Part shown: positions 13,821 through 21,133 of the stretch, one piece after another | Position numbering within the stretch: position 1 is the first letter of the stretch | How the letters are laid out: every line of letters starts with the position of its first letter | Assembly (NCBI GenBank): GCA_029254745.1 | Contig: JAQWWZ010000049.1 | Span: 1-64,000, forward strand | Direction of reading: 5' to 3' | DNA from: Opitutales bacterium | GTDB lineage: Bacteria; Verrucomicrobiota; Verrucomicrobiia; Opitutales; Seribacteraceae | DNA length: 64,000 nucleotides | Notes under the pieces: model-generated | What the model was told of the DNA's origin: nothing | Databases searched by the model: none | The model's input: only the letters and a program-made list of their open reading frames with translations | Made by a program: the position numbers and the translations under genes

Positions 13821-15035
13821 GTGTTTCTTTCTATTTTACATTTATTGATTTGGGTTTTTATAAGCTTTTTTTTGCTAGCCTGCTCAGAGTCCGTGGAAAA
13901 AGAAGAGAACCCTGTACCATACCTTGCTTTTACGCCTTATTTACCTCCTGTTCTTACCCAAAAAGACGAAAAAAAAATTGATCTAAATTATTTCGCGAAA
14001 GTTAAACCCGGCGAATTTATTATGGGTAGTCCTGTAAATGAAATAGGGAGAAAAAAAAATGAGAAACAACACCGCGTTCAAATAACAAAAGAGTTTTTTA
14101 TTTCAAAATTTGAAATTACTATCCGGGAATGGAATGAGATTTTAGGGGAGTACCACCGAAGAGAAGCACAGTTTTTTGTGCCTGACGAACATGACCATCT
14201 TCTCGAATGGTTTTATAACAATAGAAAAAATAATCCATTGAGGGATTTGATATTAGATAAAGTTACAAAGGTTGAGGAAATTGACAGCTTTATTTCAAAA
14301 TTTTAGGTATACAGGAAAAATCGAGAAAATAAAATGATACTTGATCTAGGAGAACTAGGGTCAGTGATAAAGGTCTTTGACCAACTTCAGCCGCAAGAGA
14401 TACAGATTCGTGCTTTATCTAAACAGGAAATAACCTATAAATTGCAAATTTTAAAAACATTGTGGGTAAACCATATCAATCTACCTGTGACGGACATCTC
14501 TTACACCCAAGCCCTTCAGTATTGTTACAAGAAAACTTCACTGGCTCGTGAGCAGGGTACACTTCCCCATCAGTTAATCTTTCGCCTTCCGACCGAGGCC
14601 GAATGGGAATACGCATGCCGTGCCGGCAACAAGGGAGTGAGCGGATTGGAAGAAGGAAATCAATTGTCAGGCTTGATTGCCAATATTAACGGGGGGAGCC
14701 CAAGTGCCAATATCGGTAGGGTAACCGCTTTTATCAACCGAAATAAACTTACTCCAATCTTACCAAGCAACCCTAAGTTTTCTCCCAATGCGTGGGGCAT
14801 TTACGACATGCATGGAAATGTCAAAGAATGGTGCTATGATTTTTATGCTGATTACCCAGCAGAAACCGTACTTGACCCAATCGGTCCAATTCGTGGAGTT
14901 AATCGTGTCATACGAAGTGGTAGTTTTTTGCGTACTGCTATCTCTGCACGCTCAGCTTGCAGAGAAAGCCTAGAGCCTTCCTGGAGGGGTTCTGAAATAG
15001 GGTTCCGCGTAGTCTTAGGGTATCCCCTTAGATAA
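13821..15035 (+). pseudogene. SUMF1/FGE-sulfatase-domain lipoprotein interrupted by a single in-frame TAG (14304-14306)
   Basis: ORFs 13821-14306 and 14334-15035 are in the same frame, separated by one TAG; N-half has PGEFIMGSPVNEIGR, C-half has FRLPTEAEWEYACRAG, WGIYDMHGNVKEWCYD, GSEIGFRVVLG. Confidence 0.82.
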
Positions 15036-16052
15036 TGTTTTGTCCAGAGTGGGGAGCCACTTTTTTAGATATGGCTTTATAGTTTCTACGGGCAGGGCAA
15101 AAGTGCTGACCCGGTCTACTCTGGCAATATTGATACCGATACATTTTCCTTTTAAGTTGAACAAAGGACCACCCATCCCTTCTTTGGGGAGGGGAAGATC
15201 ATGTTGAAGAATGAGGGGGAAATTATCTTTTCTTTTTGATACAGGCCCGCTCATTTGAAGGTTTCGATTAAATAATTCAAAAGTTACCGAGTTATGTCCC
15301 AGCGTTACCTTTAGTTGCTTCTTTTTGTTATTTCGCAAAATTTCTAAGGTAATCATATCTCCTGGATCCTTAGACGAAACAATTTGGATCACTTGATTTT
15401 TTCTTAGTACTCTTCTACCATCGACAGAAAGGATGAGATCCTGTGCCAGTAAGCCAGCACGGTCGGCTGCTGCTTGGGGGACAACCTCATTAATTTCTAT
15501 ACCCCCGTTTTCTTTCCCGTCTCTTCCCAGCATCACACCCATGACGCCTCCCTCTCGACCTATAGTGCGAGGGTTTCCGCTTGTTATACCAATTCGAATT
15601 TCTTGAAGTCCGGGGTAGGGAGAGAAAACCCAAGAGGCAGGGGAGGTTTGATTTCCTTCTTCCCATTCTACGCAATCAAACTCTACTTGTTGTGAAATCA
15701 ATTGATATAAAGCCAAATCAATTTCTTCAAATCGCTTACGTATTTTTAGTGGAAATGATTCTCCGTTGTGCATAGTGGCTTCTCTTGCCCCAACGCAAGA
15801 GCTCGCTTTAGTAATGATGTAACCTTCTGCATTGATTAAAGTACCAAGAGCAATCAGTTTGTTGTTACGCATTAATCTGACCGTAGAATGGAGAGCTTTT
15901 GATTTCCCTGGACCAAACGCATCTTGAGTTTTGATTCCGTTGAGCCGAAAAGCTGGTTCGAGGGAATTGGTTTGGTTTTGATCTTCGCAAAAAGCTGGAG
16001 TATTCCAAGTCACAAAAAAGAGCAGGGCTATATGTATCAGATTAAAATGCAT
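15015..16052 (-). CDS. Trypsin-like (DegP/HtrA-related) pseudoprotease with an internal PDZ domain
   Basis: GTLINAEGYIITKASSCVG (His lost), EIDLALYQL (Asp kept), PDZ GGIEINEVVPQAAADRAGLLAQDLILSVDGRRV, then EGMGGPLFNLKGKCIGIN (Ser lost). Confidence 0.78.
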   Translation of the reverse strand: MHFNLIHIALLFFVTWNTPAFCEDQNQTNSLEPAFRLNGIKTQDAFGPGKSKALHSTVRLMRNNKLIALGTLINAEGYIITKASSCVGAREATMHNGESFPLKIRKRFEEIDLALYQLISQQVEFDCVEWEEGNQTSPASWVFSPYPGLQEIRIGITSGNPRTIGREGGVMGVMLGRDGKENGGIEINEVVPQAAADRAGLLAQDLILSVDGRRVLRKNQVIQIVSSKDPGDMITLEILRNNKKKQLKVTLGHNSVTFELFNRNLQMSGPVSKRKDNFPLILQHDLPLPKEGMGGPLFNLKGKCIGINIARVDRVSTFALPVETIKPYLKKWLPTLDKTLSKGIP

Positions 16053-16056
16053 CGAA

Positions 16057-17031
16057 TTATTCAAACCTAGAGCCAAGTTTGAGTTTGAGTGTAGCTGTCG
16101 ACATCTGACGCTGATACTCGATTTTAATTTCATCCTCTGGCTCTTTGCCCGAAATAAAAATGGTTAGTTTTTCTCTGTTTCTTATAACTTCATCATCGAT
16201 TTTTAAGATGATGTCATTTTCTTGAAAGCCAGCCTTTTCAGCAGCAGTTCCCGGAATAACAGATTGGATTACAAGGCCCTGGTCACTTTCTTCGCAAGCA
16301 ATACCGAGAAATCCTCCTTGCTCAATATTTTCGAAAGTGAGCAAGTCCTGCTCGCGAAAAAACTCCCAATTTTCTTGGAACGACTCAATTGGAACATGAA
16401 AATTTTGGTCAGGTTCATTGGAGATTCGACTATGAATGGCGATAACTTTTCCCTCGAAGTTAAATAAAGGTCCACCTGAATCGCCTCCAAGTAATCGGCT
16501 ATCAGTCTGCATGGTTTCATCTTTTTTTTCGATAATACGACCGATCCTAACAACCAGACCTCTTTCAATATCAAACCCACCAGGATGGCCTAGGCCGAAA
16601 CACCAATCTCCGACTTTTGAGGAGTGAAGCTTTGGGATTTTTACATAAGGCCAAGGCCCAGGTTCCTTAATTTGGAGCATACCGGCATCTGAAATCTCTG
16701 AGCCGCCTAAGCTGACCGCGTTAGTCCGTCTTCCATCAAGCAGTCGGACTTCCATATTAACTCCGGTTCGGCCAATGACATGTGCCGCAGATAAAATGAG
16801 ACCATCAGGAGAAACAATCACCCCACTACCAGCTCCATCATTTGCTTCAATCGAAACTAAAGCTTTTTGAGTCACCGGTATGAGCTCTTGCAATCTTGCC
16901 TGAATGGCAGCTAGGTCGGCCCTGTTTTCCGGTACTTTTTTTTCCCAAGCCTGTTGATCAACAACCTCAGAAAATCCAATAACTCCGGAAAAAAAGAAAG
17001 TAAGCAGGATGCGTTGGAAGGGAAGGGGCAT
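16057..17031 (-). CDS. HtrA/DegP-like serine protease with C-terminal PDZ domain
   Basis: Signal peptide; ILSAAHVIG, SDAGMLQI, LLGGDSGGPLFNFEGKVIAIH; PDZ GLVIQSVIPGTAAEKAGFQENDIILKIDDEVI. Confidence 0.9.
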   Translation of the reverse strand: MPLPFQRILLTFFFSGVIGFSEVVDQQAWEKKVPENRADLAAIQARLQELIPVTQKALVSIEANDGAGSGVIVSPDGLILSAAHVIGRTGVNMEVRLLDGRRTNAVSLGGSEISDAGMLQIKEPGPWPYVKIPKLHSSKVGDWCFGLGHPGGFDIERGLVVRIGRIIEKKDETMQTDSRLLGGDSGGPLFNFEGKVIAIHSRISNEPDQNFHVPIESFQENWEFFREQDLLTFENIEQGGFLGIACEESDQGLVIQSVIPGTAAEKAGFQENDIILKIDDEVIRNREKLTIFISGKEPEDEIKIEYQRQMSTATLKLKLGSRFE

Positions 17032-17077: not shown

Positions 17078-17971
17078 TCAGGGTTTTAATTTGAGAGTGG
17101 AAAGTGTTCGTTCACACAAGTGGGAACTTGTTCCTTTTGATAGATAATAAAGTCGTAAATTTGCTTCATTTATTGAATGGAGATTATATATGTTTCGAGG
17201 AAGTAGTAGAGGGACTTGACTAATTATAATATCGGGAAGGTATTGCTTTGCTTGGCCTTCGTTCAAGATAGCTAGCGAACTTTCGATTTCTTTGGGTTTT
17301 TGAAAATTGATATCGTAAGTTGCGCCTTCTCTTGCTCTAAGTGACTGTAAAGAGGGTGTTATCCTAGATTTGAATTGTGTGTCGCAAAGGATTTTAATTT
17401 CTGGAGTTGCTCTCCATTTATCCCCATCTACTCCAATCCACTTATCTTGAGCAAAATAAAACTGTCCACGGCTAGGGGCAGCAAGAAAGCGAGCAAAGCG
17501 AATAGTATCGATCGGTCTTTTAGATAATTTACTTACTTGGGCATGGATTGCGGATCTTGAGAAAATTTTGTTAAGACCTGAACGATTTGGGTGATAAGCA
17601 AGGGGGATTTTTTCTGCAGATAAACTTGAAATCATTTTGTTATATGAATGGTTGGAATCTGTGGATAAAAAAAGATCAGGCCAAGGTTCTGAGTTACTGG
17701 TCAAAATTTCATCCATTTTATAAACGGAAAAGTATTGAATCTTTACCGATGTTTTCATTTCTAGTTCATAGTCATTTTTAGCTAAATCAAGAGCATTCCT
17801 CATACAGTCTTCGGCCCAAACCTGAAGAGGTTGACCAGAAGAGAAGTCTTTTTTCTGGGGCATCTTTTCCCAAACCACAAACATGGAAGCTAAGACAAAC
17901 ATAGACAGCAGCGAAAGGGAAATTCCTGTGTACTTTGGTGTTTTAAAAATCTTTTGAAAATCTTGAGACAT
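17078..17971 (-). CDS. Putative periplasmic substrate-binding-like protein (ModA-like, divergent)
   Basis: N-terminal TM after MSQDFQKIF; PLQVWAEDCMRNAL, DLFLSTDSNH and RPIDTIRFARFLAAPSRGQFYF resemble molybdate-binding-type SBPs. Confidence 0.5.
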   Translation of the reverse strand: MSQDFQKIFKTPKYTGISLSLLSMFVLASMFVVWEKMPQKKDFSSGQPLQVWAEDCMRNALDLAKNDYELEMKTSVKIQYFSVYKMDEILTSNSEPWPDLFLSTDSNHSYNKMISSLSAEKIPLAYHPNRSGLNKIFSRSAIHAQVSKLSKRPIDTIRFARFLAAPSRGQFYFAQDKWIGVDGDKWRATPEIKILCDTQFKSRITPSLQSLRAREGATYDINFQKPKEIESSLAILNEGQAKQYLPDIIISQVPLLLPRNIYNLHSINEANLRLYYLSKGTSSHLCERTLSTLKLKP

Positions 17972-18021
17972 TTGGTTGTTTATCCATTTTTTGCCCTGAG
18001 TTGAGGACCATGTAAACAAAG

Positions 18022-18801
18022 CTAGTGAACTTTTATTTTCGAAGAGTAATCCCAAAAGCGATAACTTGATGAATCCTGTATGTGGTAAAGCCAGCTTTGG
18101 GTATAATTTCGAAAAAAGTAAGGGTATAATTCTTTGGTTGTGTAAAGCCACTGGAGCTCTGAATCATAAAACCAAATGGTGTCTACTTCGTTGGATTCTC
18201 CATATAACCACCCCAATTTTTGGTGGTACAACCAGGGAGAGTTTTCTGGGTTATAAAACAAGCCAAACCAGGTAGATTCATACCAAGCATTACCTAGATC
18301 ATTTAACTCATTTGGAGTAAAATACGATGGGATGGATGCTTCCTTTGCTTCTACATTTACAATTAATGTATAAGTCGGAGTTGCACTGCCTGCGTAGCCT
18401 TGGTACCGGAAGCCTGTAATTTCAATAGTATAATTTCCAGCTTGAGAGACTTTACCCGATACTCGACCTGATCCGTAACTTAGGTCTGTACTAAGACCCT
18501 CAGGTAAGCCCTCAATTTCAAAACTTTGTGCAGAGTATCTGGATGTATAGAACTGGTAGTCGAGCTCTTCTCCAACTTTTAAAGTAATTGAACTTCCTAA
18601 ATTAGATTGTACTTCGGTTGTGGCACCAGATAATGCATGAGTTACCATCACTCCTGTTGTCGCAGGGAGCCATGCATGGATTGATTTCATTAAGCAGGGG
18701 ACTGGTTGTAGTAAAACCCCGGAAAACGAAACAAGTTTTGGCAAGACAGATCGGGTTTCAACCAAAACAAGAAAGGAAATAAACAGCCTGATTTTTTTCA
18801 T
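18022..18801 (-). CDS. Secreted protein with putative Ig-like (He_PIG) domain and W/Y-rich C-terminal domain
   Basis: YQFYTSRYSAQSFEIEGLPEGLSTDLSYGSGRVSGKVSQAGNYTIEITG; C-term WLYHQKLGWLYGESNEVDTIWFYDSELQWLYTT. Confidence 0.7.
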   Translation of the reverse strand: MKKIRLFISFLVLVETRSVLPKLVSFSGVLLQPVPCLMKSIHAWLPATTGVMVTHALSGATTEVQSNLGSSITLKVGEELDYQFYTSRYSAQSFEIEGLPEGLSTDLSYGSGRVSGKVSQAGNYTIEITGFRYQGYAGSATPTYTLIVNVEAKEASIPSYFTPNELNDLGNAWYESTWFGLFYNPENSPWLYHQKLGWLYGESNEVDTIWFYDSELQWLYTTKELYPYFFRNYTQSWLYHIQDSSSYRFWDYSSKIKVH

Positions 18802-18802
18802 C

Positions 18803-19024
18803 TTAATTACACCCACATCCACTGCCGCCTGCTCCTCTTCCCCCCCTTGATGCTTCTCTTGAAAAGTAGGCATGATCGTTCATTTTTATCGAGAGCGGGT
18901 CGCGATCTGTCTTCATAACAAAATCCGCATGATGGTACCTATCCAGTGGGCTAACAGTAACTTTGGGTGAACAACCGATAAACAGGAGGTAAGCTACAGG
19001 TGCTAGGTTAAGCGCTCTTTTCAT
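18803..19024 (-). CDS. DUF4266-like small lipoprotein ending in Gly/Cys-rich tail
   Basis: MKRALNLAPVAYLLFIGC lipobox-like; DPLSIKMNDHAYFSREASRGGRGAGGSGCGCN terminus. Confidence 0.78.
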   Translation of the reverse strand: MKRALNLAPVAYLLFIGCSPKVTVSPLDRYHHADFVMKTDRDPLSIKMNDHAYFSREASRGGRGAGGSGCGCN

Positions 19025-19991
19025 AGATGACATAATCATAAAATCTGTTGCTGGTACAGGAGGAATTAACTGATTGGATACAGCCCTCTGTATCCCATTC
19101 CGCTTCAATCATTCGCATTCCTGCTTCAATACCACTCAGTAAACAGGTTGTTGAAAGAATACCAGATTTCAGACAGCTCGGGCTGATAATAGATGCGCTA
19201 AGATCAGAATGAATAGTGGGGTAGCCAGTACGGGGGTCCAAAGTATGACCATAGCGCTTTTTACTCATATCGAAAAATTTACGGTAATTTCCTGACGATG
19301 CCAGGGCATGGTTTTTGAGCTTCAACACATAAGCAGGTTGACCCTCTTCGTTGGGCTTTTCAATACCTACCCTCCAAGCTTCATTTTTATCTGCCTCCCC
19401 TGAAGCAAAAATATCTCCACCAAAGTTGATGAGAAAACGTTGATAACCCTGGTTTTTTAAAAGCTCAGCTACTTTATCGACAGCCAATTCTTTACCAAAG
19501 CCGCCAAAATCGAGGCCCATGCCTGGCTGGGCAAGAAAAATCTTGGTTTTTGTGAATTCTACCCATTCCCAGTTTACAAGATTACGGGCTTCAAGGATTT
19601 GGTTTTCATTTGGTACACTCTTGATGGCTTTTGCTTTTTGCCATAACTGAGTAAGTGGCAGACAAGAGGGGTCAACAGCCTGCTTGCTTTGAAAGAAAGT
19701 AAAAGTGGCAGCTCTCAATACTTCATAGTCTTCTGTGGTAATAGAAACCTCATTCTTTCCTGCTGAGAGATTTACTTTAGTGACCCAGCTATTTTCAAGA
19801 TAGCGAGAATAGCGCTGTTCGAAATTATTAACCCATAAGACTACTTGTTCGGAGATAAAGTCCAGGTTCTGATTTTCAGAATATGGAAGTAGGAGGCTGC
19901 AATTCGTACCAAATGCTTGAAAGCACAGTTGTGCACATTGTTCATCTTTTCTCAGGCTGTAAGGCTTGGTATTTTCTCCTAATACTGCCAT
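19008..19991 (-). CDS. apbE: FAD:protein FMN transferase (ApbE family)
   Basis: PGMGLDFGGFGKELAVDKVAELLKNQGYQRFLINFGGDIFASGE, RYGHTLDPRTGYPT. Confidence 0.9.
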   Translation of the reverse strand: MAVLGENTKPYSLRKDEQCAQLCFQAFGTNCSLLLPYSENQNLDFISEQVVLWVNNFEQRYSRYLENSWVTKVNLSAGKNEVSITTEDYEVLRAATFTFFQSKQAVDPSCLPLTQLWQKAKAIKSVPNENQILEARNLVNWEWVEFTKTKIFLAQPGMGLDFGGFGKELAVDKVAELLKNQGYQRFLINFGGDIFASGEADKNEAWRVGIEKPNEEGQPAYVLKLKNHALASSGNYRKFFDMSKKRYGHTLDPRTGYPTIHSDLSASIISPSCLKSGILSTTCLLSGIEAGMRMIEAEWDTEGCIQSVNSSCTSNRFYDYVIYEKSA

Positions 19992-21133
19992 TGAAAGCCG
20001 AGTGTGAAGACATTTGCATCCGGATAAACTTTTTGATCAGTAACCCCATCTTTTCCCTGCGTAAAATACCGATCGAATCCGGCATCGATGATCATGTCAT
20101 CTTGGAGGAAATAAGAGAGTTTGAGGGAGACAGTTTGAGATTCAAAAGAAGACAATCGATGGTCTGCGGAATAGTATGGCCCAGTGGTTGGATTGGGGGA
20201 GATCATATATGTTTCAAATTTTTGAACTTGTGGGTTGTAAAAGAATGCCTGCTTCTGGCAGTAGAAGCGGTAACTGGTGGAGTATGCCCAATGGTCTCCC
20301 CATTTTTTGATTCCTTCAAACTCAAGGGTATGTCCGCTCAAGTCATGGTTATCTTCGAAATACCTGTAACGCATATGAACACCCGCTTTAATCCAATCCA
20401 GGTATCTTGAGATTTCAGAATAAAAAACAAAAATTTCTCTTTCATCTGGTCTGTTTTCAGGTTCTAGGTTGATAATGGGTACTGGAGACATGTCCACTGG
20501 AATCCTTTTATACGGATCACTGAGATATCCACTTGGAAAAGAATATGATAAATTGAAGGCTATCGATGTAAATTTATCTAAAACACGTTGAATACCTAGT
20601 GAGAGAGTTGGATTATTTTTGCCCACAAAATCCCCATTTATATTTTTGACTGAATCATCCTGGAGAGAAAATCCGGAATTTATAATCAGGGTATCAGCTG
20701 CCAATTTGTGGGCATATTGGAGGGCGTAACTTCTGGAAAAATAATCAGGTTCATCACTGATGCCATACTCAAAGCTCAGGGAGTAGTTTTCTGTATTTTT
20801 ACTACATGTAAATAGACCAGCCTTTCTTACTTCCTCTGAAACAATGTTGAGCCATTCGTTGGGATCGCTGGCCTTGCTTTTTTCCGGAGGTAATCCGTTT
20901 GGTGTTGCCCCAGACCAGGAATCAATTGTGCCCAGAAATTCGATCGACCATCCTTCCTGTAGTGCCATTTCAGTCTCGGCATACCATGACCTTACCTCGA
21001 CCCGATCGTCATCCTCCAGCCATTCCCGATATTTTGCCCGTAATGCATTTTGTCCGTTCCCTTTATCTGTAAACAGATGAAAAGATAATAAAGTACATAC
21101 CCAAAGCTCACGCATTGCCTTATTCTTGATCAA
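19979..21133 (-). CDS. DUF3570-like outer-membrane beta-barrel protein
   Basis: Signal peptide, alternating beta-strand pattern, SDEPDYFSRSYALQYAHKLAADTLIINSGFSLQDD, C-terminal aromatic residue (QWQY); adjacent ApbE and DUF4266. Confidence 0.78.
   Translation of the reverse strand: MIKNKAMRELWVCTLLSFHLFTDKGNGQNALRAKYREWLEDDDRVEVRSWYAETEMALQEGWSIEFLGTIDSWSGATPNGLPPEKSKASDPNEWLNIVSEEVRKAGLFTCSKNTENYSLSFEYGISDEPDYFSRSYALQYAHKLAADTLIINSGFSLQDDSVKNINGDFVGKNNPTLSLGIQRVLDKFTSIAFNLSYSFPSGYLSDPYKRIPVDMSPVPIINLEPENRPDEREIFVFYSEISRYLDWIKAGVHMRYRYFEDNHDLSGHTLEFEGIKKWGDHWAYSTSYRFYCQKQAFFYNPQVQKFETYMISPNPTTGPYYSADHRLSSFESQTVSLKLSYFLQDDMIIDAGFDRYFTQGKDGVTDQKVYPDANVFTLGFQWQY

Follow-up and report, generated by a model that had tools for sequence, protein, structure and literature searches.

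In the HtrA proteases DegP and DegS, loop L3 relays the signal of the PDZ domain to LD of the next subunit, and Thr176, Arg187 and Gln200 (DegP numbers) mediate this activation between monomers (PMC5666011). HtrA activation has so far been understood for homotrimers, in which every subunit both senses and cuts. A pair made of a protease and a pseudoprotease is also of a known kind, since MamO, whose own triad is lost, activates MamE noncatalytically (PMC4794232).

The gene pair and its genome

The window, the whole stretch of 64,000 nucleotides that was analyzed, comes from an Opitutales genome assembly of 2.45 Mb (97% complete) whose named relatives are MAGs and single-cell genomes of Opitutales/Opitutia. 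It contains a pair of minus-strand open reading frames, the pseudoprotease P0001 (15015–16052, hereafter P) and the protease P0002 (16057–17031, hereafter A); all features of the two genes given below lie on this strand. A is encoded just upstream of P, which starts 4 bases past the P0002 stop codon. Both frames had been placed correctly in the initial annotation, which left the strand unstated, and the stretches that it had picked out in P (ITKASSCVG, DLALYQL, a PDZ stretch and EGMGGPL) were all confirmed, in the order it gave. P is 344 residues long; its N-terminus is a hydrophobic, signal-like segment, and its domains run from barrel 1 through the start of barrel 2 and a PDZ domain to the remainder of barrel 2.

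Fold of P and position of its PDZ domain

Pfam matches P to Trypsin_2 (residues 70–166, 9e-7) and PDZ_2 (residues 171–251, 4e-14). When the family profile was aligned with PDB sequences, P residues 62–169 aligned with DegP-like residues 93–200, ending in GIVSAKGRSLPNE, residues 283–338 aligned with DegP-like residues 205–265 (FIQTDVAINPGNAGGPL...AIP), and residues 185–255 aligned with the DegP-like PDZ1. The alignment to the DegP-like sequence is split, and the PDZ domain therefore interrupts barrel 2 between its strands 8 and 9, which is loop L3. Residues 57–165 (15558–15884) comprise barrel 1 and barrel 2 strands 7–8 (Trypsin_2, DegP-like alignment, AF2), and residues 166–252 (15297–15557) are the PDZ domain (PDZ_2, profile alignment). 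A conserved linker, VTFELFNRNLQMSGPVSKRKDN (residues 256–277; 15222–15287), modeled by AF2 with low confidence, returns to barrel 2, and residues 281–332 (15057–15212) supply its strands 9–12 and a C-terminal helix (AF2, hhalign, profile alignment). Comparisons with the adjacent A by hhalign show the split as well, the P profile with its PDZ excised matching at 98.7% (E 2.2e-16) and the C-terminal piece alone at 96.4% (E 1.1e-9).

The AF2 model of P (mean pLDDT 80.4, pTM 0.62) has strands in residues 57–165 (pLDDT mostly 85–97) and places barrel 2 strands around the PDZ; the flanking strands are 141–145, 152–157, 282–284, 296–298, 304–311 and 317–321. Its top Foldseek matches are DegS, DegP and DegQ, with E values of about 1e-15 to 1e-14 (best DegS 3gdv, 2.6e-15). 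The TM score is only 0.28–0.33, as expected because the domain order is changed and the Foldseek alignment is sequential, for which reason this comparison cannot confirm barrel closure.

By Pfam, hhalign, profile alignment and Foldseek, P is thus homologous to the chymotrypsin-like two-barrel fold of HtrA/Do (S1C). The initial annotation had proposed a PDZ inside the trypsin fold, with the order H-D-PDZ-S, and had assigned the C-terminal GGPL segment to the second protease barrel; the order is borne out by Pfam, profile alignment and hhalign, and the last two also identify the GGPL segment as belonging to that barrel. The PDZ domain retains a conserved GGVxGV stretch, which by sequence is the expected ligand loop.

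Loss of catalysis in P and its retention in A

The counts of catalytic and relay residues come from an alignment-based census of 84 non-redundant P homologues from four Verrucomicrobiota families. The position of the catalytic His, in the motif TKAS (residues 81–84; 15801–15812), is occupied by Ser84; among the homologues it is Ser in 81, Glu in two and Thr in one, and never His. At the position of the catalytic Ser, in the motif GMGG (residues 292–295; 15168–15179), P has Met293, and the homologues have Met (54), Cys (11), Val (8), Ala (5), Ile (3) or, once each, Thr, Leu and Ser. The single Ser stands in STSPI, not SGG, and a catalytic SGG serine occurs in 0 of the 84. The catalytic Asp (Asp112 in P) is retained in 82/84, and no intact triad was found elsewhere in P. 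The earlier reading of P as a pseudoprotease that has lost His and Ser and kept Asp is therefore correct. P does not have the His-Asp-Ser triad and GxSGG of S1C peptidases, and its PDZ lies between residues 162 and 283, not C-terminal to a continuous protease domain; it is an HtrA homologue and by definition not an HtrA peptidase, on grounds of both triad and domain order. As judged from the aligned sequences, its degeneracy is conserved, not random. That P might be a one-off decayed gene is ruled out by conservation across the 84 sequences.

A subgroup of homologues (L130–L133, L135 and L137–L142) has Cys at the former catalytic Ser, in CGGPV/I, and no catalytic His. Several other positions of P are near-invariant, namely Arg314 (83/84), Lys82 (82/84) and Asp285 (81/84). 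Together with the conserved Ser84 and Asp112, these might mark a new catalytic or ligand site of P's own (Lys82/Ser84/Asp112, or the Cys in 11 members), with A maturing P or sharing a pathway with it, and the comparable pseudoprotease MamO has indeed gained metal binding (PMC4794232). We consider this improbable, as L133 has neither Lys82 nor Ser84, the Cys variants are also without His, and fusions of the two genes in both orders (see below) favor constant association over simple processing.

The neighbor A (324 residues; 16057–17031) is, as the initial annotation had it, a canonical HtrA-like protease. Its triad is intact, with His84 (16780–16782) and Asp115 (16687–16689) each conserved in 83/83 and Ser185 (16477–16479) in 84/84 sequences of the census, and Pfam finds one C-terminal PDZ at residues 240–319 (16075–16314). 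A is DegS-like and has the HtrA/Do order of triad then PDZ; it lies outside the curated Do subfamily TIGR02037, because its 132.9 bits fall under the 416-bit cut-off.

Pairing, fusion and joint inheritance of P and A

Partnership of P with the adjacent protease is the best supported of the earlier claims, by adjacency, gene overlap, fusions of either order, duplication as a pair and trees that match, and we regard the pairing as strongly supported. In the window's family all 27 of 27 intact A/P pairs are adjacent and co-directional. A is intact beside P in 34 of the 36 named loci, while the remaining two run into a contig end, and the genes overlap by 4 bp at 21 of the 34, typically as ATGA in the window's family. 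Outside that family A and P are adjacent or fused in 28/29 loci, and the same is true of all second-copy loci (16/16). There are eight A/P fusions, two in P-A order (L101 and L102) and six in A-P order (L124 and L130–L134). The fused proteins of L130–L134 are about 650–850 residues long, some with a long linker joining the halves.

The A and P trees have the same main clades, two paralogous pair lineages included, and are correlated with r = 0.92 over 82 pairs, a value that partly reflects shared species history; the matched paralogues do not follow from that history. Paralogous P copies each keep their own A partner, and the pair has been duplicated jointly. In genus g85 (genomes of 2.7–3.5 Mb) the first-copy A is typically 246–249 residues long and without a PDZ, so that P carries the sole PDZ of that pair. 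Most A partners, however, have a PDZ of their own and do not depend on P for one.

Two exceptions were seen. In genome G399 no A lies next to P, and a 36% identical A is on a different contig. In genome G017 (locus L086), a close relative, A is intact and 89% identical to P0002, and the P beside it is frame-broken; sequencing error and recent loss cannot be told apart as causes. This P gene (L086 5230–6260) is broken by several small indels that cluster within about 400 bases. In genomes of the window's genus where P was not found, the A orthologue is mostly also absent or cut by a contig end, and several of these assemblies are incomplete.

Conservation of the flanking genes is confined to the window's family, where they encode a hypothetical exported protein, an FGE-sulfatase domain protein, a histidine kinase and a response regulator. 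Outside it they are unrelated between genomes, and so A is the only constant neighbor of P. In the window the FGE-sulfatase domain gene (13821–15035, plus strand) is convergent with P and interrupted by an in-frame TAG at 14304–14306; its relatives are one open frame (e.g., L063:6296–7516), and the closest one, in L086, is also in two pieces. The gene at 17078–18151 (minus strand) encodes a protein without a Pfam match and is an apparent conserved upstream neighbor (cluster 2, 29/38 loci, window's family) whose relatives resemble exported solute-binding proteins. Farther upstream, at 18803–21133 (minus strand), ApbE, DUF3570 and a small Cys/Gly-rich protein with the C-terminus GGAGGSGCGCN lie together, and the ApbE and DUF3570 order is repeated in several relatives.

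Relay residues

Arg162 of P (15567–15569) corresponds to the arginine of sensor loop L3 (DegP Arg187, DegS Arg178) and Gln283 (15204–15206) to DegP Gln200, and both are invariant (84/84). The spacer between them is 111–133 residues in P homologues vs. 8–10 in the active partner. The equivalents in A are less strictly conserved by the same census, Arg165 in 76/84 and Gln175 in 57/84. A loss of the L3 arginine from A is ruled out by the HMMER alignment and the census, in which Arg165 aligns with the relay Arg. The DegP Thr176 equivalent (the Glu151 position) is variable among P homologues, and the receiving-side Thr is absent. Because the Arg and Gln are invariant, the Thr is absent and the PDZ follows right after the Arg, P appears to be a subunit retained for signal sending, not for cutting.

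An adaptor or chaperone, whose PDZ and dead cleft hand unfolded proteins to A without any L3 allostery, would fit the pairing, the fusions and the PDZ-less partner equally well, and the GGVxGV stretch of the PDZ would suit it too. It would leave unexplained both the invariance of Arg162 and Gln283 when the protein has no active site and the placing of the PDZ exactly in L3, and we think it unlikely as an account of what P does; a chaperone role as such, which the initial annotation had raised beside a regulatory one, is neither supported nor excluded.

Distribution

P occurs in most genomes of the window's family; the genomes sampled elsewhere in the order yielded no full-length relative. Across the phylum sample, P was also present in families f29, f33 and f59, making four Verrucomicrobiota families in all; nearly all f29 genomes with a match have two P copies, usually as two pairs per genome. 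In the other Verrucomicrobiota families sampled P was not found at the thresholds used among the five candidates scored per genome, which is not proof of absence because only those five were scored. Plasmids gave only ordinary Do/DegQ-like matches and viral contigs gave no matches. Planctomycetota presumably carry P-like sequences of the CGGPL type, which we note as a lead only. We found no description of the P family in the open-access papers searched on HtrA pseudoproteases with PDZ domains, Akkermansia HtrA and Verrucomicrobia HtrA, and automatic annotation probably labels P as a trypsin-like or PDZ protein and misses its status as an inactive partner.

A proposed working of the pair

We propose that P is probably an obligate noncatalytic subunit of a hetero-oligomeric HtrA, in which it would sense peptides through its PDZ and so set how active its partner is. 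Both proteins would be exported to the periplasm, where they would most likely assemble as one mixed HtrA oligomer. The PDZ of P, in L3 right after the relay Arg, would bind a peptide signal or substrate tail; the resulting change would travel via Arg162 and Gln283 to the activation loop of the neighboring A subunit, and the signal from P would thereby set the proteolytic activity of that A, either up or down. Against this reading stand the relay Thr176, which is not conserved in P, the exceptions in G399 and G017, and the PDZ that most A partners carry themselves.

An AF2 model was made of locus L063 as one linked chain (A, a read-through stop and P; 673 residues), using a P-only plus read-through alignment; a mixed MAFFT alignment stacked P on A and was dropped. 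Its pTM is a modest 0.63, and its active half matches MucD and DegS normally (Foldseek, TM by target 0.62–0.71). This model is weakly suggestive of a fixed A/P arrangement.

Dead subunits in a trimeric HtrA protease can hold their neighbors inactive. P could accordingly be a dominant-negative or decoy inhibitor that holds A off until it is removed, and the same pairing evidence fits such a role. The data do not separate inhibition from activation, and a permanent inhibitor would need neither a conserved PDZ nor conserved relay residues; we give this explanation little credence.

If P is instead the sensing subunit proposed above, the pair may represent a division of labor, tentatively one in which one subunit lineage is catalytic and a paralogous dead lineage, with its PDZ in L3, is only the sender of the allosteric signal. 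It is conceivable, on the same footing, that several Verrucomicrobiota families have maintained this split and that gene fusion has repeatedly turned it into a single-chain enzyme. With sensing placed in a subunit that is permanently dead, the end of the L3-to-LD path that sends and the end that receives could be mutated separately.

Comparison with known systems

Like the DegS/DegP-type HtrA proteases (MEROPS S1C), the pair has the two-barrel fold, PDZ domains and the L3 relay Arg and Gln. Within this group A is an ordinary member, a protease domain followed by a PDZ, whereas P lacks the catalytic His and Ser and carries its PDZ inside barrel 2, in L3, rather than after it.

The Csp proteins are subtilases. 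C. difficile CspC and CspA resemble P in that they are pseudoproteases of a serine protease family acting as signal sensors (PMC12880746), and they differ from it in fold and process. Arabidopsis Deg5 and Deg8 resemble the g85 pair in combining one HtrA without a PDZ and one with a single PDZ; unlike P, both have full triads and the canonical domain order (PMC3640471).

The closest known case is that of MamE and MamO from magnetotactic bacteria, which are like A and P in being an HtrA protease and a triad-defective HtrA-like relative encoded in one gene cluster (PMC4794232). P is not a member of the MamO family, as it scores 26 bits against the MamO model NF040961 (cut-off 800) over residues 46–143 only. 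MamO needs its transporter domain for activation and has a metal site, and its interaction with MamE was not detected (PMC4794232); P has an inserted PDZ and no TauE-like transporter domain by Pfam, and its gene overlaps or fuses with that of its partner. What is new relative to MamE/MamO is thus the PDZ inserted in L3, the gene overlap and fusion, the PDZ-less partner and the spread of the pair over several families.
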